Part shown: positions 34,137 through 44,282 of the stretch, piece after piece
Layout: each line of letters starts with the position of its first letter
Numbering within the stretch: position 1 is the first letter of the stretch
Assembly (NCBI RefSeq): GCF_020179405.1
Contig: NZ_JAICBZ010000022.1
Span: 1-49,475 of the forward strand
Source: Xinfangfangia pollutisoli
GTDB lineage: Bacteria; Pseudomonadota; Alphaproteobacteria; Rhodobacterales; Rhodobacteraceae
DNA length: 49,475 bases
Reading direction: 5' to 3'
The notes under the pieces: model-generated
Databases searched by the model: none
Seen by the model: the letters and a program-made list of their open reading frames with translations, nothing else
Told to the model about the DNA's origin: nothing
Translations under genes and position numbers: made by a program

Positions 34137-37100
34137 ATGGAACGGCCGATCGAGATCATTCGGTTTCTGCGCGACATGACGGCAGCGCCGGCCACCGGCA
34201 CGGGCCCCGATCTGCGCCAGTGCTATGCCCGGCTGATCGCGCTGTCGGGCGGCGGGCGGGCCTGGCTGTTCCTGCCCGAAGACGGCAACAGCCTGGCCGA
34301 GTTCTGCGAGGCAGACCCCGAGGACCGGATCGGATCGGCGCCGGCCTTGCAGCAGGCCGTGCCCGAGGCGCTGGCGGTTGCCGATCCGGGGCAGCTGACC
34401 GCAGCGCCCGGATTGCGCCGGTTCCTGCTGCAGAAGAAGGCCGGCCCCGTGGTGCTGGCGCCGATGCTGCTGGGCGACCGGCTGACCGGGCTTCTGTGCC
34501 ACGCGCCGCCGCCCGGGCCGGGCGACGACCGTGATCCCAGTCGTGACCCCGGCTTCCTGCGCGAATGCGCGGCCTTGCTGGGCGATCTGCAGACCCGCGC
34601 GGGCAACCGCAGCCCGCGCGGCGAACCCACGGCCCGGCTGATCCGCACGGTGGAAGCCCTGCCCGACCTGATGTTCGAGGTGGACAGCGCGGCGCGCTAT
34701 ACCAGTTTCATGACCGGCCCGCGCCGGATGCTGCCGCAGCCCGATCTGAACGTGACCGGCCTGTCGCTGGACGAGGTTCTGTCGCCGCCCGCCGCCCGGA
34801 TCATGCATCACGCCCTGCAGACGGTGATGCGCCACGGCAAGATCTCTGGCGTGACCTATCAAAGCGCCCGCGCCGATGGCCCGCATCTGCTGGAGCTGCG
34901 CGGCGCGCGCAGGCCCTCGGACGAGCCCGACCAGCCGCCGACGGCGATCTTCCTGGCCCGCGACATCACCCGCGAACACCTGATGCGGGAAGAGCTGAGC
35001 CGGATGGACAGCGTGATGCGGGCGATGAGCAACCTTGTCATCATCGTCGATCCCGATCTGCGGGTGACCTGGGTCAATCCTGCCTTCGAGCGCCATACCG
35101 GCTGGACCCTGGACGAGATCCACGGCCAGGTGATCACCGATCTGGTGCGCTGCGACGAAAGCGATCCGGCGATATCGGCCGGCGTTGCCGAGGCGATTGC
35201 CGCGGCCCGGCCGTTCAGCGGCCAGATGGTCAACAAGGACCGTCACGGCCGCCACTTCTATGTGGATTTCAACATCCTGCCGCTGTTCAGCACCGAGGGC
35301 GTGCTGCAGGGCTTTGTCTCGGTCGAGACGGTGGTGACGGAACTGGAAGAGCAGAAGATCGCGCTGGGCAAGCTGGCCACCGAGGCCGCCGCCGCGCAGC
35401 TTCGGCTGGAAAACGCGCTGAACGCCCTGCCCGACAGCATCATGATCTTCGATGCCCAGGACCGGCTGGTGATCTGCAACCCTGCGCATCGCCGCGCCTT
35501 CGCGCGGATGGCCGATGCGCTGGTGCCGGGGGTGACGCTGTCCGAGCTGGTGCGGGTCGGGGTTGAACGGGGCTATTTCGACGGGCCGTCGGACCCGAAG
35601 AAATGGCAGCGCTACGAGGAAGAGACGCTGGCGCCGTTCCGGCAGGCCAGCTACAGCGACGAGTTGCAGATCAAGGACGGGCGCTGGTTCCGGCGCGTCA
35701 ACAAGCGCACCTCGGATGGCGGGCTGATCTCGGCGATGATCGACATCACCGTGCGCCACCGGCAGATGGCCGAGCTGGATACGGCCAACGAACGGCTGTG
35801 GCGGGCGCTGGAACAGCGGGAACTGGCCGAGCAGCGGCTGAGCAACATCATGGAGGCGACGCGGGTCGGAACCTGGTCGCTGGATCTGGGCCGCGCGATG
35901 ATGACCGGCTGCCAGCACTGGGCGCGGATCATCGGGGTGCAGACCAATACCGACATCTCGATTCCGCATGCCGAGTTCATGGATCTGGTCCATCCCGACG
36001 ACCGCGGGATGCTGGAAACCGACACGCCGCAATCGGCCGCCCTGTCGCCCGATGTGTTCGAGCATGAATTCCGCATGCTGCACCGCGACGGCCGCTGGGT
36101 CTGGGTGCTGTCGCGCGGCCGGATCGTCGGCCGCGATGCCGAAGGCCACCCGCGGCAGTTTGAAGGCGTCGACATCGACATCAGCGAACAGAAGCAGCTG
36201 GAACTGGATATCCGGCAAAGCGATATCCTGTTGAAATCGGCGCTGGAAAGCAATGTCGCCGCCTTCGCGATCTATGACGGCGACAATATCCTGCAATATT
36301 GCAATGCCGAGGCCGAGCATATCCTGAAGCTGAAGCCGGGCCTGTATATGGGCCGGCAGGATGGCGAGCTGCGCTGGCGGATGGAACATGTCGACGGCCA
36401 CCCGCTGGCGGCGGGCGAGGGGCCCTGCGAAAGGGCGCGGCGCGAGAATGCACTGCTGCGCGACCTGCGCGTCGCCGTGCGCTGGCCCGATGGCCGGCGC
36501 CAGGTGCTGACCTGCAATGCAACGCCCTTCGACGCCGGCAATGGCCGCATCCACACCGCGATCTCGTTCCGCGACATCACCCAGCAGCTGGAAGTGACCG
36601 CCCAGCTGGAAGACGCGCTGGCCCATGCCGAAGCGATGAGCAAGTCGAAGTCGATCTTCCTGGCCAATATGAGCCACGAGATCCGCACGCCGCTGAACGG
36701 CGTTCTGGGCCTGGCCGAGGTGCTGAGCCTGCAGATCAAGGATCCCGAGCAAAGCCGGATGATCGCCACGATCCGCCGCTCGGGCGAGACGCTGCTGTCG
36801 GTGCTGAATTCGATCCTGGACATGTCGAAGATCGAAGCCGGCAAGATCGACATCGAATATGTGCCGCTGCGGCTTCTGGACATCCTGCAGCAGCTTGAGG
36901 CGGTCTATTCGATCCAGGCGGCCGAGAAGGGCCTAGATTTCGAGGTCATCACCTCGTCAGGGGCGGAAATTCCGCGGATCGGCGACCCGCACCGGATCCA
37001 GCAGGTGCTGAGCAACCTGTTGAGCAATGCGATCAAGTTCTCGTCCGAGGGCGGGGTCTCGCTGACGGTTTCCTGCCGCCCGGGCCGGCCGGTGACCTTC

Positions 37101-37337
37101 TCGATCAGCGATACCGGCGTCGGGATGACCGCCGATCAGCGCGACCGGGTGTTCAAAAGCTTTGAACAGGCCGACAGCAGCGTGACCCGCCGCTTCGGCG
37201 GCACCGGGCTGGGCCTGTCGATCGTGCGCGAGTTGGTCGAGCTGATGGGGGGTGAAATCACCCTGGAAAGCGAGCCGGATGTCGGAACGACGGTCCATGT
37301 GTCGCTGCCGCTGAAAATGGCAGAGCCGGCCGAGTAA
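34137..37337 (+). CDS. Multi-PAS sensor histidine kinase (HK1)
   Basis: A soluble kinase of about 1066 residues. Residues 1-165 look GAF-like; then come about five PAS modules (near 172-290, 290-410, 430-545, 568-690 as PAS_3 type, 700-820), a HisKA domain with His847 (FLANMSHEIRTPLNGVLGLAEV), and a complete HATPase domain (N box NLLSNAIKF, DTGVGM, GGTGLGLSIV). It has no receiver domain of its own. No membrane segment is visible, so the signal is cytoplasmic. I take the ATG at 34137 because sequence before it is not domain-like; ATG 34029 or TTG 33978 could extend it. RR1 follows after 172 nt and is the likely partner. Confidence 0.9.
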   Translation: MERPIEIIRFLRDMTAAPATGTGPDLRQCYARLIALSGGGRAWLFLPEDGNSLAEFCEADPEDRIGSAPALQQAVPEALAVADPGQLTAAPGLRRFLLQKKAGPVVLAPMLLGDRLTGLLCHAPPPGPGDDRDPSRDPGFLRECAALLGDLQTRAGNRSPRGEPTARLIRTVEALPDLMFEVDSAARYTSFMTGPRRMLPQPDLNVTGLSLDEVLSPPAARIMHHALQTVMRHGKISGVTYQSARADGPHLLELRGARRPSDEPDQPPTAIFLARDITREHLMREELSRMDSVMRAMSNLVIIVDPDLRVTWVNPAFERHTGWTLDEIHGQVITDLVRCDESDPAISAGVAEAIAAARPFSGQMVNKDRHGRHFYVDFNILPLFSTEGVLQGFVSVETVVTELEEQKIALGKLATEAAAAQLRLENALNALPDSIMIFDAQDRLVICNPAHRRAFARMADALVPGVTLSELVRVGVERGYFDGPSDPKKWQRYEEETLAPFRQASYSDELQIKDGRWFRRVNKRTSDGGLISAMIDITVRHRQMAELDTANERLWRALEQRELAEQRLSNIMEATRVGTWSLDLGRAMMTGCQHWARIIGVQTNTDISIPHAEFMDLVHPDDRGMLETDTPQSAALSPDVFEHEFRMLHRDGRWVWVLSRGRIVGRDAEGHPRQFEGVDIDISEQKQLELDIRQSDILLKSALESNVAAFAIYDGDNILQYCNAEAEHILKLKPGLYMGRQDGELRWRMEHVDGHPLAAGEGPCERARRENALLRDLRVAVRWPDGRRQVLTCNATPFDAGNGRIHTAISFRDITQQLEVTAQLEDALAHAEAMSKSKSIFLANMSHEIRTPLNGVLGLAEVLSLQIKDPEQSRMIATIRRSGETLLSVLNSILDMSKIEAGKIDIEYVPLRLLDILQQLEAVYSIQAAEKGLDFEVITSSGAEIPRIGDPHRIQQVLSNLLSNAIKFSSEGGVSLTVSCRPGRPVTFSISDTGVGMTADQRDRVFKSFEQADSSVTRRFGGTGLGLSIVRELVELMGGEITLESEPDVGTTVHVSLPLKMAEPAE

Positions 37338-37509
37338 GTGCTTGATCTGAAAGCCTGCCCGGAAAACCGCCGCCGATCCCGCCACAGGACGGCCACAGTA
37401 ATACCCCAATCTGACCAATATTTTTCCCCACATATCACCTACCAGTTGAGTCAAAGTCGAGTAATACAGCCAGATCAAGGCCCTGACCCAATCGGCGAAA
37501 GGTAGAACA

Positions 37510-38484
37510 ATGAAGATCCTAGCCGTCGATGACGAACCCCTGTTCCTGGAAATTCTGGAGGTCGCCCTTCAGGATCTGAATCTGACGGACGTGACGCCGA
37601 TCTATTCCGCCAAAGAGGCGCTGCGCGAGCTGGAATCGGGCAAGGCGGTTTTCGACTGCGTTCTGCTGGACATCCGCATGCCCGGGATGAACGGGGTGGA
37701 ACTGTGCCGCAAGATCCGTGCGGTCGCCGGCTACAAGCGCACCCCGATCGTCATGGTCACCGCGATGACCGATCGCGAATTCATCGAAGAGGCCTTTGCC
37801 GCCGGCGCCTCGGACTATTTGACCAAGCCACTGGATCCGCTGGAATTGCGCGCGCGCATGACGATGGTGGAACGGCTGATCGACGAGCAGGCACGCAATG
37901 TTCTGCTGGAACAGCGCTCGCCCCTGCCCTTCGAGGGCGAAGAGGAAATCGGCGAGGTCGAAGAGATCGAATTCGCCCTGGAGGCGCCGGTCGTTCTGCA
38001 GGGCTTTGACCGGATCATCGCCTATTCGGCGATGGAAAATTACCTGACTTCGCTGAGCGGAAAGAACGCGCTGAACACCGATGTTCTGGCGATTTCGATC
38101 CACAATGCCCGCAGTCTTTTCGATGCGGGGCGGCGGATCGATTTCATGAACGCGCTTTATGATGTGGGCGTGACGATCGAAACCGTGCTGAAGCGGTTCA
38201 ATGCGATGATTTCCTACGCGGGGGATGGGGTTTTCGTTGCGGTGACCAATGCCGCCGAAGAACCCGACATCCTGCTGCTGGAAGACCAGATCCGCAGCCG
38301 CATGGCCGATTTCGACCAGATCTACCAGCGCGACGATCTGCCGGCGCCGCTGGTCAAGGTCGGGCCGGCGATCAGCAAGCCGCTGGGCAAGGACGTGTCG
38401 GCGGCCGATCTGCTGAACGAGGCGATTGCGGCCATCGGCCAGCAGGCCGCGCTGGTGCAGGACGAAGCGCTGAAGACGGCCTGA
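37510..38484 (+). CDS. Response regulator with degenerate GGDEF/cyclase-like domain (RR1)
   Basis: 324 residues. The receiver domain is complete: acidic pair in AVDDE, phospho-acceptor Asp54 (LLDIRMPGMNG), Thr84, Lys106. After an acidic linker (about 140-160) comes a domain of about 150 residues that aligns with the C-terminal half of the response regulator at 43344-44282: AMENYLTSL near 174, then AGDGVFVAV at 237-245 where an active GGDEF protein would have its signature, then PLVKVGPAIS. The signature and metal ligands are not conserved, so it is probably catalytically dead and used for binding. Ribosome binding site AAAGG. Confidence 0.85.
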   Translation: MKILAVDDEPLFLEILEVALQDLNLTDVTPIYSAKEALRELESGKAVFDCVLLDIRMPGMNGVELCRKIRAVAGYKRTPIVMVTAMTDREFIEEAFAAGASDYLTKPLDPLELRARMTMVERLIDEQARNVLLEQRSPLPFEGEEEIGEVEEIEFALEAPVVLQGFDRIIAYSAMENYLTSLSGKNALNTDVLAISIHNARSLFDAGRRIDFMNALYDVGVTIETVLKRFNAMISYAGDGVFVAVTNAAEEPDILLLEDQIRSRMADFDQIYQRDDLPAPLVKVGPAISKPLGKDVSAADLLNEAIAAIGQQAALVQDEALKTA

Positions 38485-39025
38485 GCGGTTGGGCGAGGCA
38501 GATTGTGCCCTGCGCGCGCGCCGCGGGATCTGGCGCTGGCGGAAAGCCGCCGGTGCCCCGCGCGGCGCCGGAAATCAGGGCGCAGTTTGGCGCCGCGGTG
38601 ATGGGAAGGTGAAATTTCTTGTTTTTCAGAAGCTTGAAATAGCGCCGCCGCCGCAAGCCATCCGGGCCGCGTGATCATGTCTTCCGAGTATATGTTTCTG
38701 CTTCGGCAGAGCGTGCGGGCGCCCCAAATGTTTACGCTAGGTCACGCCTTGCACGGGAACGGGTTAGAGGTTGATTTGTTAGTCAATCATCACAGCTTTG
38801 AGTTGTGTTGGCCCTCGAGGACCTGATATTGTTTTACTATGCGGGATCAAGTTTCATTGACCGACACGGAGCCGAAACGCGACTTGCGCGTTGTCGGGAA
38901 AATGGGCGGTGAAACCGGGGGTGTTTGCCCCCGACCCCGATGTGTAGTTGATGGTGCGCGATTTCGGCTCTAAGGCCAATTCGTCTCCGGTGTGCCGCCC
39001 TTCTCCTGAATGAAACGGATCCAAA
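38485..39025 (+). other. 541-nt gap between RR1 and the REC protein
   Basis: I find no credible gene. The middle part (about 38620-38850) is clearly less GC-rich than its surroundings. A 6-bp stem hairpin CGGGGG/CCCCCG lies at 38916-38933 without a T-run. The stretch may hold a promoter, a small RNA or a long leader for the next gene. Confidence 0.6.
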
Positions 39026-39865
39026 GTGAACGTCAGCCCCTTCCGCCCGATCGAGGTGCTTCGCAAGCTCGAAGCCGATTACGGTCCGATGGCCGAAACG
39101 GTCGGCGCACGGTTCGAGGCGTTCAACAGCCTGGGCTGCGAAAAGGGCCGGATGGGCGATGCGGATGCGCTGGAACAGGTGCTGCGCCAGATCATCGGCC
39201 CGGCGCCGTTCCAGAACGGCGACAGCAGCTTGCGGCTGAAGCTGAGCGCCAAGGCCGACAAGCCCGTGACGGTGGAAATCGTGTCTTCGACCAGCCGGCT
39301 GGCGGCGGATGAGGCGGTTGAACGCGCGGTCGCGGCGATGGGTGGGTCGGTTTCGGCGGTGTCGGGCCCGTCCAGCCAGACGGTGCGCCTGACCCTGCCG
39401 CTGGATGAGGTCGAGCTGGACTGTGTCGAACAGGATGTCCGCCCGCAGGAGGAAAGCGCCAGCCTGGCCGGAACGCGGATTCTGATCGCCGATGACAGCC
39501 CCACCAACCGGCTGGTGCTGGAAGAGATGCTGGCCGACACCAAGGCCGAGCTTGTCAGCGTGAACGATGGCAAAGAGGCGCTGGACCGCTGGCGTTCGGA
39601 CCAGTTCGATCTGCTGCTGCTGGATATCTCGATGCCGGTGATGGATGGGGTCACCGCGATCCGCGAAATCCGCGCCACGGAACAGGAAAAGGCGCTGACA
39701 CCGACGCCGGCCATTGCGGTTACGGCCAATGCACTGGTCAATCAGGTGGCGGATTATCTGGTGGCGGGCTTCGACACCCATCTGGCCAAGCCGTTCCGGC
39801 GCAAGGATCTGATGCATGCGATCCTGACCTTGCGGACCGGAATGCGCGAGCTGCCGCGCGCCTAA
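39026..39865 (+). CDS. Receiver protein with vestigial kinase ATPase domain
   Basis: 279 residues. The C-terminal receiver (151-270) is complete: DDSPTNR, phospho-acceptor Asp200 (LLLDISMPVMDG), Thr233, Lys255; it resembles the tail receiver of hybrid kinases. Residues 10-130 align with the ATPase domain of the neighbouring kinases: LEADYGPMAE, GRMGDADALEQVLRQIIG in place of RIGDPHRIQQVLSNLLSNAIKF, and a final SQTVRLTLPL in place of TTVHVSLPL. The N-box Asn, the DxGxG box and the GTGLG loop are all missing, so it cannot bind ATP in the usual way. There is no HisKA domain. The start is a GTG with a weak ribosome binding site; a stop lies just upstream in frame. Confidence 0.82.
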   Translation: MNVSPFRPIEVLRKLEADYGPMAETVGARFEAFNSLGCEKGRMGDADALEQVLRQIIGPAPFQNGDSSLRLKLSAKADKPVTVEIVSSTSRLAADEAVERAVAAMGGSVSAVSGPSSQTVRLTLPLDEVELDCVEQDVRPQEESASLAGTRILIADDSPTNRLVLEEMLADTKAELVSVNDGKEALDRWRSDQFDLLLLDISMPVMDGVTAIREIRATEQEKALTPTPAIAVTANALVNQVADYLVAGFDTHLAKPFRRKDLMHAILTLRTGMRELPRA

Positions 39866-40231
39866 GACCTGCCATGACCGCCGGAAACCGATTGTCCAGG
39901 GCCCGGCAATTCCAATTGCCCAGCGCCGGAATTATTGGCCGATTTCCGCGCCTTGCCTTGGCGGCGAAACGATTTCGCGCTGTGCGGCCCGGCGCAATTG
40001 CGCGGCGCCATTCGCCAGAGTGCCCGGTCATTCAGCGCGGCTGCAACACCGCGCGGCTTTATCCTGATCGCCTGTGGAAGGGTCTTGATCGAAGGCGCCC
40101 GTCCAAGACAGACTGCACGCGTCCCAGCGTTATCCGGGGCAAGTGTTTTATGCGTGATCTTGGCATTCCCGACCTTCGCCTGACCCGCTGCTTTCCGAAT
40201 GCCAATTTGTTTTTGTCTGAAAGGATCATTC
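39866..40231 (+). other. 366-nt gap before RR3
   Basis: No credible gene. Palindromes are present: GGCAAT-TCCA-ATTGCC at 39905-39920 and GCGCAATTGCGC at 39992-40003, sharing the core CAATTG or a near form. The last 100 nt become less GC-rich and should hold the RR3 promoter. Confidence 0.55.
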
Positions 40232-40681
40232 GTGCCAGATGACGACGCAAGCCCCGGGCAATACGCGATAGTGCCCAAACGAATGGAAGCGTCCGCCAGA
40301 CCGATCAGGATTCTTGTCGCCGATGATGACGAGATCAACAGGGCCATCGTCGGGCATCTGATCGCGACCCTGCCCGAAGCCATGCTGACCGAAGCGGCCG
40401 ATGGCCGGGCGGCGCTGGAACTGGCCCAGACCCAGCGCTTCGATGTGCTGATCTTCGATCTGAACATGCCCGAGATCAAGGGCGACCGGCTGATCCGCCA
40501 TCTGCGCGCCAGCCAGTCTCTGAACGCAGCCTCGGCCATGGTGCTGTTCAGCGCCGCCGCCGATGCCTCGGGGCAGATTCCGGGCAATACCGCCTCGGCG
40601 CTGGCCGATCTGGTCCTGCCCAAGCCGATCCGGGCCGAGGCCTTTCTGACCGCGATCCGGGGCCTGGCGCAGCGGGGCTAA
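40232..40681 (+). CDS. Single-domain response regulator (RR3)
   Basis: 149 residues, only a receiver: acidic pocket VADDDEIN, phospho-acceptor Asp76 (VLIFDLNMPEIKGDRLI), Ser107 in the switch position, Lys131. A short N-terminal extension of about 22 residues precedes the domain. I choose the GTG at 40232 with AAGGAT in front; the ATG at 40283 would give a bare receiver. With no output domain it is suited to shuttle phosphate to or from the Hpt protein encoded nearby. Its stop is three bases from that of the convergent kinase HK2. Confidence 0.85.
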   Translation: MPDDDASPGQYAIVPKRMEASARPIRILVADDDEINRAIVGHLIATLPEAMLTEAADGRAALELAQTQRFDVLIFDLNMPEIKGDRLIRHLRASQSLNAASAMVLFSAAADASGQIPGNTASALADLVLPKPIRAEAFLTAIRGLAQRG

Positions 40682-40684
40682 GGA

Positions 40685-42865
40685 TCAGGCCTCTTCCAGC
40701 GGCAGGATGACCCGCACGGTCGTGCCTTCGCCCAGCTGGCTTTCCACTTCGATCCGGCCCTGCATCAGCTCGACCAGCTTCGCCACGATCGCCATGCCCA
40801 GCCCGGTGCCGCCGAAGCGCCTTGTCACGCTGCCATCGGCCTGCTCGAAGGCGTTGAAGATGCGCTGCGCCTGTTCGTTGTTCATCCCGATGCCGGTATC
40901 GCGCACCTCGATGACCATGGGCTTGCCCGGCGGGCAAGAGAAGACGACCGAGATCTCGCCCTCATGGGTGAATTTGATCGCGTTGCTGACCAGGTTCTGC
41001 AGGATCTGCATCAGCCGGTGCGGGTCGCCGATGCGCGGCATGTCGGGCCGGCCGCTGGTGTAGATTTCCAGATCGAGCCGCTTTTCATCGGCCGCAACCG
41101 CGTAAAGCTCATGCACGCGCGAGGCGATCTGTTCGGGGCGGAACAGCGCCGCCTCAAGTTCCAGTTTGCCCGCCTCGATCTTCGACATATCCAGCACGTC
41201 GTTCAAGATCGTCAGCAGCAATTCTCCCGAATGGCGGATCGTCGACAGCATCTTCTTCTGTTCGGCATCCTGCACCAGCCGGTCCAGCACTTCGGCCATG
41301 CCCAGAACCCCGTTCAGCGGGGTGCGGATCTCATGGCTCATATTGGCGATGAACTGCGACTTGCTGCGGTTTTCCGATTCCGATTTGGCGGCGGCATCGC
41401 GCAGGCTGATCTCGGTGCGGTATTCGTCGGTGATATCGGCCAGCGAGACCACCACCTTGGCCTCGGCCTCGGTCGATTGCAGCAGCGTCGCGTTGACCGA
41501 GATCACCCGGCGTTCGCCATCGCTGCGCCGCAACAGCGACACCCGGCGCTTGCGGATCGGCTTGTGGTCCAGAAGCATCCGCGCGAAGGCCAGCGCCAGA
41601 CCCGAGGCCGGCGTGCCTTCGGGCCATTCAAAGCCCCAGCGGGGATCGGCCAGATTGATCTCGCGCACCGCCACGGCCTGCAGGCCCAGGATCCGCTCGG
41701 CCTCGGCATTGATGAACAGGATGCCGCCGCGCGTATCGAGCGCGATGATCCCGGACAGGTTGGTTTCCATCAGCCGCGACAGGAAATCCCGCTCGGCCTG
41801 CAGGGCGCCTGACAGGAAGCGCCGTTCGGTGGAATCATGCAGGCGCAGGACCCAGCCGATCACCACATGCTCGCTGCCGAAGGGCTGGCGCACCGGGAAG
41901 ACATCGGGGTCGAAATAGCGGTTGCGGATGGTCAGCGCCCGGGGCGTCGGATGGCCCGCGGTGTCGATGATCTCGCTGATGAAACCCTGAAGCTCTTGGT
42001 TTTCGGCCTCCATCCCGTCGGATTTGCCCGGCTCGCGCCCGAAGATGCGCCGGGCTTCGGGGTTGCGGCCCACCTGGTTGCCGTCGCGGTCCAGGAAGAC
42101 GATGGGATCGGGCGCATTGTGGAACAGCAGATCCTTGGCGATCACCGCCACATCCATCAGCACATTGCGCGCGATCATCTGCGACAGCAGAAACAGGCTG
42201 ATCGAGAAGCCGAAGGGCGTGGGGTCGAAGCCATGCACCGTGAAGCCGAAGCCGATATAGAAGATGTTGCACAGCACCGGCACCAGCGTGACCATCAAGA
42301 GGCCGATGAAGAAGGACCGGTGCTGGACATTGGCCAGGACCGAGCCGCGAAGCGTCACCATCAGCGCCCAGGCCAGGTAGAGATACAGATAGACCGAGAA
42401 GGCCAGGAACAGCGGGCCATGCTGGAATTCCACCGCCGGAATCCCGTCGATGATCGTGATCCGGGTCTCGGTTCCGTAGAACAGATGGTGCCAGTCATTG
42501 GTCGCCACCACGATCGCCGCGGCCAGCGGGCCCAGAACCAGGGCCATGCAACGCCAGGTGGGCAGGCGGCGCGACATGCCCAGGGCGTAATCGGTCAGGA
42601 AGAAGGCCCAGGCGGTGGGCAGCAGCACGATGGCCGGCCAGGCCGCCTTGGCCCAGAAGATCTTGCACTCCTCGGTGGTCGAGCTGAGTTCCAGGAAGAC
42701 GGCGATCAGCCAGTACAGCATCGCCGCCAGGGCGATGACGAAGAAATGCCGGCCGAAGAAATACTCGCGCCCCGACCGATACAGCAGGTAGAAGATGCCG
42801 AGCCAGAAGAACAAGGTCACACCCCCGAGCGCGTCGATGCGCTGGACCTCGAAGCATTCTGTCAT
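40685..42865 (-). CDS. Membrane histidine kinase with 7TM N-terminal domain (HK2)
   Basis: 726 residues. The first 230 hold about seven membrane segments (from LFFWLGIFYLLY to FGFSISLFLLSQMIARNVLMD), resembling the 7TM sensor module found in some histidine kinases. Two PAS domains follow (near 245-350 and 370-480), then HisKA with His511 (FIANMSHEIRTPLNGVLGMAEVLDRL) and a full HATPase domain (NLVSNAIKF, DTGIGMNNEQ, FGGTGLGMAIV). There is no attached receiver. It is the last gene of the minus-strand set RR2-Hpt-HK2. The signal is not known; the 7TM module suggests a small hydrophobic or membrane-borne ligand. Confidence 0.9.
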   Translation of the reverse strand: MTECFEVQRIDALGGVTLFFWLGIFYLLYRSGREYFFGRHFFVIALAAMLYWLIAVFLELSSTTEECKIFWAKAAWPAIVLLPTAWAFFLTDYALGMSRRLPTWRCMALVLGPLAAAIVVATNDWHHLFYGTETRITIIDGIPAVEFQHGPLFLAFSVYLYLYLAWALMVTLRGSVLANVQHRSFFIGLLMVTLVPVLCNIFYIGFGFTVHGFDPTPFGFSISLFLLSQMIARNVLMDVAVIAKDLLFHNAPDPIVFLDRDGNQVGRNPEARRIFGREPGKSDGMEAENQELQGFISEIIDTAGHPTPRALTIRNRYFDPDVFPVRQPFGSEHVVIGWVLRLHDSTERRFLSGALQAERDFLSRLMETNLSGIIALDTRGGILFINAEAERILGLQAVAVREINLADPRWGFEWPEGTPASGLALAFARMLLDHKPIRKRRVSLLRRSDGERRVISVNATLLQSTEAEAKVVVSLADITDEYRTEISLRDAAAKSESENRSKSQFIANMSHEIRTPLNGVLGMAEVLDRLVQDAEQKKMLSTIRHSGELLLTILNDVLDMSKIEAGKLELEAALFRPEQIASRVHELYAVAADEKRLDLEIYTSGRPDMPRIGDPHRLMQILQNLVSNAIKFTHEGEISVVFSCPPGKPMVIEVRDTGIGMNNEQAQRIFNAFEQADGSVTRRFGGTGLGMAIVAKLVELMQGRIEVESQLGEGTTVRVILPLEEA

Positions 42866-42950
42866 TCTGGACCCCGTGAATATGGTCGGGCACCGCGGGT
42901 GCGGCGCTTTCCGATCAGCCAGTAAAGTGCAGCTTGCAGCTAGAGTTCTG

Positions 42951-43331
42951 TCAAGATTGCCTGACGTCTAGCACATTGCTGAGGCTGGCGTGAAATATGG
43001 AAATCGGTTGATCGAAGGTTCGCAGGTCCAGCGCGCCGGATTTCTGCGCCTGCGTCAGTTGCCGATCCAGGCTGGCGGCGGCCTCGCCCAGGCTGTCATA
43101 GCCCAGCGTCGCAGCCACGCCCGAGACGCGATGGGCGATCAGGCCGATGCCCGTCAGCGACTCGCGCAGCTGCGCGGGGGATTCGGCCGCCCGGCGCAGC
43201 ATGGCGATTTCAAGCACATAGGTTTCCGCCAGGGCCAGAAAACGCTGGCGGATCGCGAAGAACGGGTCTTTCGGCGGCTCGGCGCGCGGGTCGGGCGAAG
43301 AGATCTTCATGTCGGGATTAAGCACGTACAT
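42951..43331 (-). CDS. Free histidine phosphotransfer (Hpt) protein
   Basis: 126 residues, all helical. The phospho-accepting His67 lies in LIAHRVSGVAATLGYDSLGEAAASLDRQL, with the expected H-x3-G spacing and downstream Leu pattern. The start is 43331 or an ATG at 43310; neither has a strong ribosome binding site. It lies 12 nt after RR2 and 85 nt before HK2. As a stand-alone Hpt it can relay phosphate between the receivers encoded around it. Confidence 0.83.
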   Translation of the reverse strand: MYVLNPDMKISSPDPRAEPPKDPFFAIRQRFLALAETYVLEIAMLRRAAESPAQLRESLTGIGLIAHRVSGVAATLGYDSLGEAAASLDRQLTQAQKSGALDLRTFDQPISIFHASLSNVLDVRQS

Positions 43332-43343
43332 CGCGGAGCCGGA

Positions 43344-44282
43344 TCAATGCGTGAAGGCCAGTTTGCGCGCGCTTTGGCGGGCATCGGCGAAAAGCTGCGG
43401 CACCGCGGTGCGTGTGAACAGCCCGGCATGCTGGATCTCGCCCACGCGCACGACCGGCAGCGGAATGCCCAGCGCCTTGTACAGCTGCGCATAGCGATCC
43501 AGCGCAAGTTCGATTTCATCCTGCACAAGATCGGTGTCGAAATCGGCGCGCTGCGCCACCATGGCGACGAATTCGCCCTGGCCGGCAAAGGCGATCAGAT
43601 GGTTATGCGCCTTCAGCGCCCCGTCGATCGCCGAGGCGACATTGGCCATCGTGTCGATATAGCCGACCCCGTCGGTGGCGCAGTAGATGCTTTCGGCATT
43701 GGCAACCTTGAAGGCCAGAACGCCCTGCCCCATCAGCCGCAGCCGGCCCAGCGTCAGAGCGTAATTCTCAAGCGCCAGGGCGCTGATCACGCTGCCGGCT
43801 TCGGTGATCGTCACCGGCTCGTCGAAGGTGACATTGACCACCGGCAGACCGAAATCAGACGACAGGCGCGTCTCGACCGAGGCGCGGCGGCGGCGTTCGT
43901 CGATCAGATCGCCGACCATGCGCAGCCGGGTCTTCATCTCCAGCTCGTCGATCGGCTTGTGGACATAGTCATTGGCGCCGGCGCGGAAGGCATGTTCGAC
44001 ATGTTCCAGCGATTTCATCGCGGTGATCATGACGATCGGCGTCGTATGATAGTTTTGCATGGCGCGGACGCGCCGGCACAGCTCGATCCCGGTCATGCCG
44101 GGCATTTCGATATCCAAGAGCAGGCAATCGAATTTCTGCCGCGGGTCGCGCAGCCGCGCCAGGGCCTCGCTGCCCGAATTGACGCTGACCAGATCAGCAT
44201 AACCGATCGCGCCAAGCACGTGTTCCAGAAGCATCAGGAAAACGGGATCGTCGTCGACCGCCAGAATCCGCATCGGTGCCAT
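43344..44282 (-). CDS. Response regulator with degenerate GGDEF-like domain (RR2)
   Basis: 312 residues with the same architecture as the protein at 37510-38484. Receiver: AVDDDP, phospho-acceptor Asp57 (LLDIEMPGMTG), Thr88, Lys109. The C-terminal domain has ALENYALTL near 170, VLAFKVANAES, and AGQGEFVAM at 233-241, close to but not a GGDEF signature, then PLPVVRVGEI. The catalytic glutamate/aspartate arrangement is lost. The start follows GGAAAGG. It is the first gene of RR2-Hpt-HK2. The two regulators are clearly paralogues, probably from a duplication of a kinase/regulator unit. Confidence 0.86.
   Translation of the reverse strand: MAPMRILAVDDDPVFLMLLEHVLGAIGYADLVSVNSGSEALARLRDPRQKFDCLLLDIEMPGMTGIELCRRVRAMQNYHTTPIVMITAMKSLEHVEHAFRAGANDYVHKPIDELEMKTRLRMVGDLIDERRRRASVETRLSSDFGLPVVNVTFDEPVTITEAGSVISALALENYALTLGRLRLMGQGVLAFKVANAESIYCATDGVGYIDTMANVASAIDGALKAHNHLIAFAGQGEFVAMVAQRADFDTDLVQDEIELALDRYAQLYKALGIPLPVVRVGEIQHAGLFTRTAVPQLFADARQSARKLAFTH

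Follow-up and report, generated by a model that had tools for sequence, protein, structure and literature searches.

In the LuxN/LuxQ-LuxU-LuxO quorum-sensing relay, a single free histidine phosphotransfer protein (Hpt) collects the signals of several sensor kinases, and the ShkA-ShpA-TacA system of Caulobacter follows a hybrid kinase-Hpt-response regulator logic that ends in TacA, a DNA-binding sigma-54 activator. In the CckA-ChpT-CtrA relay, ChpT is a kinase-like dimer. This study concerns a seven-gene island at positions 34,137 to 44,282 of a 49,475-nucleotide stretch of the Xinfangfangia pollutisoli genome (contig NZ_JAICBZ010000022.1, positions 1 to 49,475; the whole of this stretch is called the window). 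The island is a real, conserved phosphorelay locus of this known general kind, and what makes it unusual is a pair of response regulators with apparently dead GGDEF outputs and their own Hpt, together with what reads as a hybrid kinase split into two proteins.

Each of the described systems is matched in part. The island resembles CckA-ChpT-CtrA as an alphaproteobacterial relay of the hybrid-kinase type; however, its Hpt matches the Pfam family PF01627, and no DNA-binding domain was found in the regulators at the presumed end of the relay. ShkA is the top fold match of RECx, one of the island's receiver proteins, but the island encodes this receiver apart from the kinase and has pseudo-GGDEF domains as its outputs. 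The likeness to LuxN/LuxQ-LuxU-LuxO lies in the presumed convergence of sensor kinases on one free Hpt and in relatives of the family, 15 of whose 75 loci have a luxI nearby, whereas the one luxI match of the X. pollutisoli genome is on another contig and the island's output is not of a DNA-binding type. In topologies H, I and J of roseobacters, an orphan luxI lies beside a histidine kinase and a two-component phosphorelay has been suggested (PMC3824088), though the passages on these topologies name neither an Hpt nor a pseudo-GGDEF regulator. No description of this module was found by title and abstract in the open-access literature, a search that mostly does not cover subscription papers.

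The seven genes form two facing sets. HK1 (34137-37337), RR1 (37510-38484), RECx (39026-39865) and RR3 (40199-40681) are on the plus strand, and HK2 (40685-42865), Hpt (42951-43331) and RR2 (43344-44282) are on the minus strand. The stop codon of RR3 ends at 40681 and that of HK2 begins at 40685, leaving three bases between them. HK1 is a soluble multi-PAS histidine kinase with HisKA and HATPase domains (Pfam) and zero transmembrane peaks. HK2 is a 7TM-PAS-HisKA-HATPase kinase; its HisKA_7TM domain matches PF16927 at E 4.6e-39, and it shows six hydrophobic peaks. This layout, the character of both kinases and the lack of a DNA-binding domain in any of the four receiver proteins had all been claimed by a first-pass annotation made from the sequence alone, and all were borne out; for the last of these, Pfam gave no match to such a domain and the best 25 NCBIfam matches lay on or about the receivers. 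The kinase His, intermediary receiver (REC) Asp, Hpt His and terminal REC Asp of a multistep His-Asp phosphorelay are all present, with the Asp and Lys found in all four receivers (RR1, RR2, RECx and RR3). Rough ratios of nonsynonymous to synonymous substitution rates (dN/dS) were 0.15-0.47 for all seven genes against four relatives, with well diverged synonymous sites and one saturated Hpt comparison, so all seven look to be under selection and conserved as proteins. Two plus-strand gaps without an obvious gene, at window positions 38485-39025 and 39866-40198, exceed the gaps of the minus-strand half, and separate promoters there are possible.

RR1 and RR2 were not credited with an output domain by the first-pass annotation, and this proved wrong. 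Single-sequence Pfam and NCBIfam scans of both proteins gave no credible match beyond the receiver. An AlphaFold2 model of RR2 from an 11-sequence alignment (predicted local distance difference test score, pLDDT, 86.6) placed a degenerate GGDEF fold at residues ~150-312, after a receiver and a linker helix. The best Foldseek matches to this model in the PDB, over its whole length, were WspR 3i5a (E 1e-15; also 3bre) and DgcR 6zxm (E 3e-13), followed by PleD entries, with receivers at lower ranks among the matches listed. Whole-chain template modelling scores (TM-scores) were low at 0.37-0.41 normalised by query, which indicates that RR2 matches the domains of WspR and DgcR in order rather than as one rigid arrangement; the relative placing of the domains differs or is unsure. 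For RR1, the same architecture of REC, linker and pseudo-GGDEF domain follows from the Pfam receiver, the family alignment and a family-level profile match. That family has 96 rows, namely RR1, RR2 and 94 of 95 profile matches, the remaining match having a length beyond the limits set. When the 96 C-terminal domains were compared, profile to profile, with 30 GGDEF domains, the match had a prob value of 94.7 over 136 columns (E 5.9e-8, for one comparison), whereas the controls gave 0.6 for reversed GGDEF, 0.4 for REC, 0.3 for LuxI and 0.1 for Hpt. The REC-linker-GGDEF fold of WspR and DgcR is thus present, on the evidence of the RR2 model together with the profile match of the C-terminal domains. 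An initial by-eye guess that the output domain was a class III nucleotide cyclase was dropped, as it reached a prob of 51.3 against 25 cyclase domains (25 of 30 fetched loci yielded a usable domain) versus 94.7 for GGDEF.

The residues of the two halves of these proteins have fared very differently. None of the 96 aligned members has the motif [GAS]G[DE]EF, so the GG[DE]EF active site is missing, and the loop usually reads G-x-G-x-F instead (G in 93/96, G in 94/96 and F in 91/96). The RxxD inhibitory site for cyclic di-GMP (c-di-GMP) was found in 0/96, both at the expected column and at offsets of -3 to +3. The column that matches the metal-binding Asp holds N in 44, D in 15 and G in 14 of 96, an equivalence that rests on the profile alignment. 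In contrast, the receivers are intact, with the phospho-accepting Asp57, Lys109, the Thr/Ser and the switch Tyr/Phe106 each present in 96/96. Because the receiver residues are kept while the GGDEF motif and RxxD are absent, RR1 and RR2 look like regulators that can be phosphorylated but whose GGDEF output is dead, its catalytic residues having been lost. This loss sets them apart from WspR and DgcR, as does the fact that they are probably fed by an Hpt. It also names an output family open to testing: pseudo-diguanylate cyclases that keep their phosphorylation residues, occur in about a quarter of the sampled genera and are tied to a dedicated Hpt. Within a clade of 28 rows (support 100, starred), RR1 and RR2 belong to separate subclades; 20 regulators of this clade are Hpt-linked, one is linked to both Hpt and luxI, and seven to neither. 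The island therefore unites two regulator lineages and not a recent tandem copy.

RECx is more than the bare receiver that it had been taken for. Pfam detected only a receiver in it, with no HisKA or HATPase match. When aligned by BLAST with a hybrid kinase of Cereibacter changlensis (43% over 293 columns), its first ~130 residues align as a truncated HATPase_c domain and the rest as the receiver; the hybrid kinase of another genome (G024) aligns at 37% over 295 columns. Relative to the C. changlensis protein, a 27-residue deletion takes out the ATP lid and the G2 box. RECx is not itself a hybrid kinase, as it has neither a HisKA phosphoacceptor nor a complete HATPase. Its AlphaFold2 model, built from three sequences (pLDDT 80.5; predicted TM-score 0.48), retains an alpha/beta fold in the N-terminal half, and its top PDB match was the hybrid kinase ShkA (E 1.2e-14), while the other 49 matches listed were receivers or receiver-bearing chains. 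In a REC tree of 73 rows and 122 columns (flagged as few) that carries only Shimodaira-Hasegawa-like approximate likelihood ratio test support, the five RECx receivers form one clade (99, starred) among those of hybrid kinases, with joining forks of 88-93, unstarred. Neither the window's HK1 nor that of four relatives has a C-terminal REC by Pfam, whereas the hybrid counterparts of HK1 at two loci (L022 and L103) do carry one. The plain reading of these comparisons is that a hybrid kinase became a kinase plus a separate receiver and that RECx is its detached C-terminal portion, and as a natural case of such a split it should be useful for the study of how relay wiring evolves. The idea of a decaying pseudogene was dropped in view of conservation in five species, a dN/dS of 0.20-0.28 and a closely similar REC. 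Matches to the N-terminal domain of RECx at 44% identity or above occur in 3 of the 394 family genomes, including that of the window, and all three carry the island; six weaker matches (32-36% identity) lie in frames of 825-1508 aa.

RR3 is a single-domain receiver (Pfam, alignment with relatives and REC tree), and the alignment suggests that its true start is perhaps the GTG at 40232, later than called. In the REC tree it belongs to a group of 17 rows (97, starred) with 12 solo receivers, and 12/12 of these sit in loci with a hybrid kinase. The free-standing Hpt matches PF01627 weakly (E 5e-6; 27.1 bits, where the cut-off is 24.6) and had no match in an NCBIfam scan, and its phospho-accepting His is invariant across 20 aligned sequences.

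The first-pass annotation had asked for the gene set to be sought in other Rhodobacterales, and the result of that check was favourable. All seven genes occur together in five species of three genera, namely in the window's genome, in G002 and G007 (same genus and same layout) and in G270 and G417 (other genera, with parts re-oriented). At locus L022 of C. changlensis, five co-directional genes run hybrid HK-RR3-RR2-Hpt-HK2, with the REC inside the HK. The RR-Hpt core co-occurs across the family. The pseudo-GGDEF domain was found in 96 of 394 family genomes (from 393 genera), and the Hpt family (E up to 4.1e-11) gave 77 matches in 71 genomes. The co-occurrence test used these Hpt matches and the 150 RR matches in 93 of the 96 genomes that were among the matches listed. 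On that basis, 69 of the 77 Hpt matches lie less than 1 kb from a pseudo-GGDEF gene on the same strand (53 of 61 when the 16 rows used to build the profile are removed), and 68 of the 71 Hpt genomes also have a pseudo-GGDEF regulator (Fisher p 5e-51, not corrected for relatedness), the three others being G137, G253 and G420. A looser Hpt threshold gave matches in 117/394 genomes, with many of the extra matches in frames of ~700 aa or longer.

At the level of loci, 49 of 75 have the Hpt gene immediately after that of a pseudo-GGDEF regulator, and 52 have it somewhere in the locus. This set includes more than one locus for some genomes and was picked mostly from the top of match lists, so it is not a random sample; it leaves out L173 (G127; its contig has 21,288 bases, as does the L022 record), L021 (same place as L101), L028, L111 (receiver match only) and the window. 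From 80 initial matching loci, L021-L027 and L030 were used, L028 was inspected only, and the other 71 were dropped as receiver-only matches, none of which extended past query residue 158. The module is also found on plasmids: six plasmid records have the Hpt, and on the Pseudosulfitobacter plasmid pDSM107133_a a regulator, Hpt, REC, HK and PAS protein are annotated in one row. Proteins with DUF4214 adjoin the module on that plasmid (L233:17430-20927).

The idea of a shared phosphorelay that acts through protein contact, put forward in the first-pass annotation, remains the best reading and is backed by the co-occurrence of the genes, although neither its flagellar target nor its absence of an output domain held up. 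We lean, at somewhat better than even confidence, towards a multistep relay that runs from HK1 and HK2 through RECx, and perhaps RR3, to Hpt and on to RR1 and RR2. We infer its steps and their direction as follows. The cytosolic multi-PAS HK1 and the 7TM HK2 would each autophosphorylate and pass phosphate to the free RECx, since HK1 is without the receiver that its hybrid relatives carry; the remnant ATPase fold of RECx is probably a docking domain. RR3 may be a second shuttle or a phosphate sink. Phosphate would then move to the single Hpt and onward to the terminal regulators RR1 and RR2, where REC phosphorylation probably switches the geometry of dimer and linker, by analogy with WspR and DgcR. 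Their output would most likely be protein-protein contact and not c-di-GMP synthesis, because the GGDEF fold is without catalytic and product-binding residues. The dimerization and histidine phosphotransfer (DHp) stretches of the two kinases share 67% identity across 72 residues and both contain SHEIRTPL, which suggests that HK1 and HK2 have shared partners.

The switch position bears on the order of the receivers in this relay. In a published contrast between the intermediary receiver of CckA and the terminal one of CtrA, the aromatic switch residue is variable in CckA and Tyr is kept in CtrA, as far as the portion of that work considered here goes (PMC9981736). An aromatic residue is found at this position in 96/96 members of the RR family but in 0/5 RECx, 0/5 RR3 and 0/16 hybrids (the latter three by a crude motif finder), which predicts that RECx and RR3 are intermediaries or sinks and that RR1 and RR2 are the switched end points.

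A number of points weigh against this relay. The same work treats intermediary receivers as more than a single group, with those of the ShkA type resembling that of CtrA (PMC9981736, again in part), and by fold search RECx is nearer to ShkA, while the published contrast is between CckA and CtrA. The motif finder is crude, as it scored 75/96 of the RR family with 5 unplaced versus 96/96 by alignment, and with it an aromatic was found at the Tyr position in 3 of 47 other solo receivers. The Hpt is the least conserved part of the island (36-51% identity with four relatives), and since the Hpt profile was built from Hpts beside pseudo-GGDEF genes the adjacency count is biased upward, a bias that the 53/61 count lessens but does not remove. 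No Hpt lies directly downstream in 26/75 loci, so some members of the family work without an Hpt or with one elsewhere. HK1 could also phosphorylate its neighbour RR1 directly, with the Hpt serving RR2 only.

In the likeliest of the alternatives, the island holds two ordinary two-component pairs, HK1 acting directly on RR1 and HK2 on RR2, while RECx, RR3 and Hpt drain phosphate or fine-tune. HK1 and RR1 do adjoin on one strand, RR1 and RR2 derive from different subclades, and several loci of the family show an HK and an RR with no Hpt detected. However, throughout the family an Hpt gene immediately follows RR2-type genes, a hybrid kinase (the hallmark of a relay) is found in the closest relatives, and the DHp identity of HK1 and HK2 makes separate wiring less likely. 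Two independent pairs are improbable, though with enough in their favour to deserve consideration.

A slightly smaller chance still is given to the possibility that the pseudo-GGDEF domain is a ligand sensor that combines REC phosphorylation with the binding of GTP or c-di-GMP at some non-canonical site, a PopA-like idea. The fold persists throughout a broad family in which the G-x-G-x-F loop is conserved, and inactive GGDEF domains are often c-di-GMP effectors (PMC9239204, consulted in part). However, the metal Asp is not conserved, and the canonical I-site RxxD is the one found in 0/96, a loss that is taken in the same part of that source as a sign against an effector role (PMC9239204). With three GGDEF matches in the window's genome, the cell may contain c-di-GMP, a point that weighs neither way.

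Control of the neighbouring flagellum, the target suggested by the first-pass annotation, is very improbable: genes for DUF1217, FlbT (presumably, from reading frame and position), FlaF and flagellin do lie ~0.9-4 kb beyond RR2 in the window, but a tblastn search (E 1e-10) of the DNA flanking the island in G002, G007, G270 and G417 (up to ~20 kb per side, with a contig end on one side in G007) gave no homologues of these four, the flagellin matches lie ~225 kb from the island on the same contig in G007 and on other contigs in G002 and G417, and G270 has a complete island yet no flagellin match in its genome.

The wider family offers a quorum-sensing lead. By BLAST, 15/75 family loci have luxI close to both a kinase gene and a pseudo-GGDEF gene (L025, L026, L107, L108, L180, L195, L210, L211, L213, L214, L216, L221, L225, L226 and L229). 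The kinases in these loci have 455-492 aa, and each of the four that were inspected has hydrophobic segments at its N-terminus. A link to Hpt and luxI at once is seen for five regulators, and only one of the 21 luxI-linked regulators falls in the 28-row clade of the window. A review of roseobacters noted luxI-HK neighbours and likened the kinases to LuxN in the section at hand (PMC3824088), and in P. inhibens pgaI2 is downstream of a hybrid kinase, according to the excerpt available (PMC12363192). The module is a candidate for the missing half of the luxI-histidine kinase gene pairs of roseobacters. However, no autoinducer synthase gene is linked to the island, as the single luxI match of the window's genome is on another contig (C123), and the link to quorum sensing is accordingly a lead that concerns the family and not a finding for this island. 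On C123, a 532-aa frame with a partial GGDEF match is ~3.4 kb away from that luxI (G000:C123:129569-133871), and a similar pair is found in G002 (C12) and G007 (C5).

A bolder reading, which can be offered tentatively and is in our view rather doubtful, is that the island represents an undescribed, family-wide Rhodobacteraceae signalling module of dead WspR-like outputs with a dedicated Hpt, which would read out acyl-homoserine lactones (AHL) through luxI-adjacent kinases ancestrally or in some branches. In this island, the hybrid kinase would have been cut and the free receiver would keep its dead ATPase fold as a tag on which other kinases dock. The AHL version, as a part of the same reading and no firmer than it, might amount to a LuxN-LuxU-like relay with a protein-contact output.

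A constant functional neighbour of the module was sought and discarded as an idea: besides the relay genes, a luxI cluster was seen in 13 loci, one frame in 26 and several families in 4-13 (crude gene calling and single-linkage clusters, of which luxI and four other examples were followed). Six of the luxI-linked loci (L108, L210, L216, L225, L226 and L229) share a dynamin-like GTPase and a second, weakly GTPase-like protein, as well as a PP2C phosphatase and an FHA-like (Yop-YscD_cpl) protein, and each of these families is confined to those six among the 75 loci.

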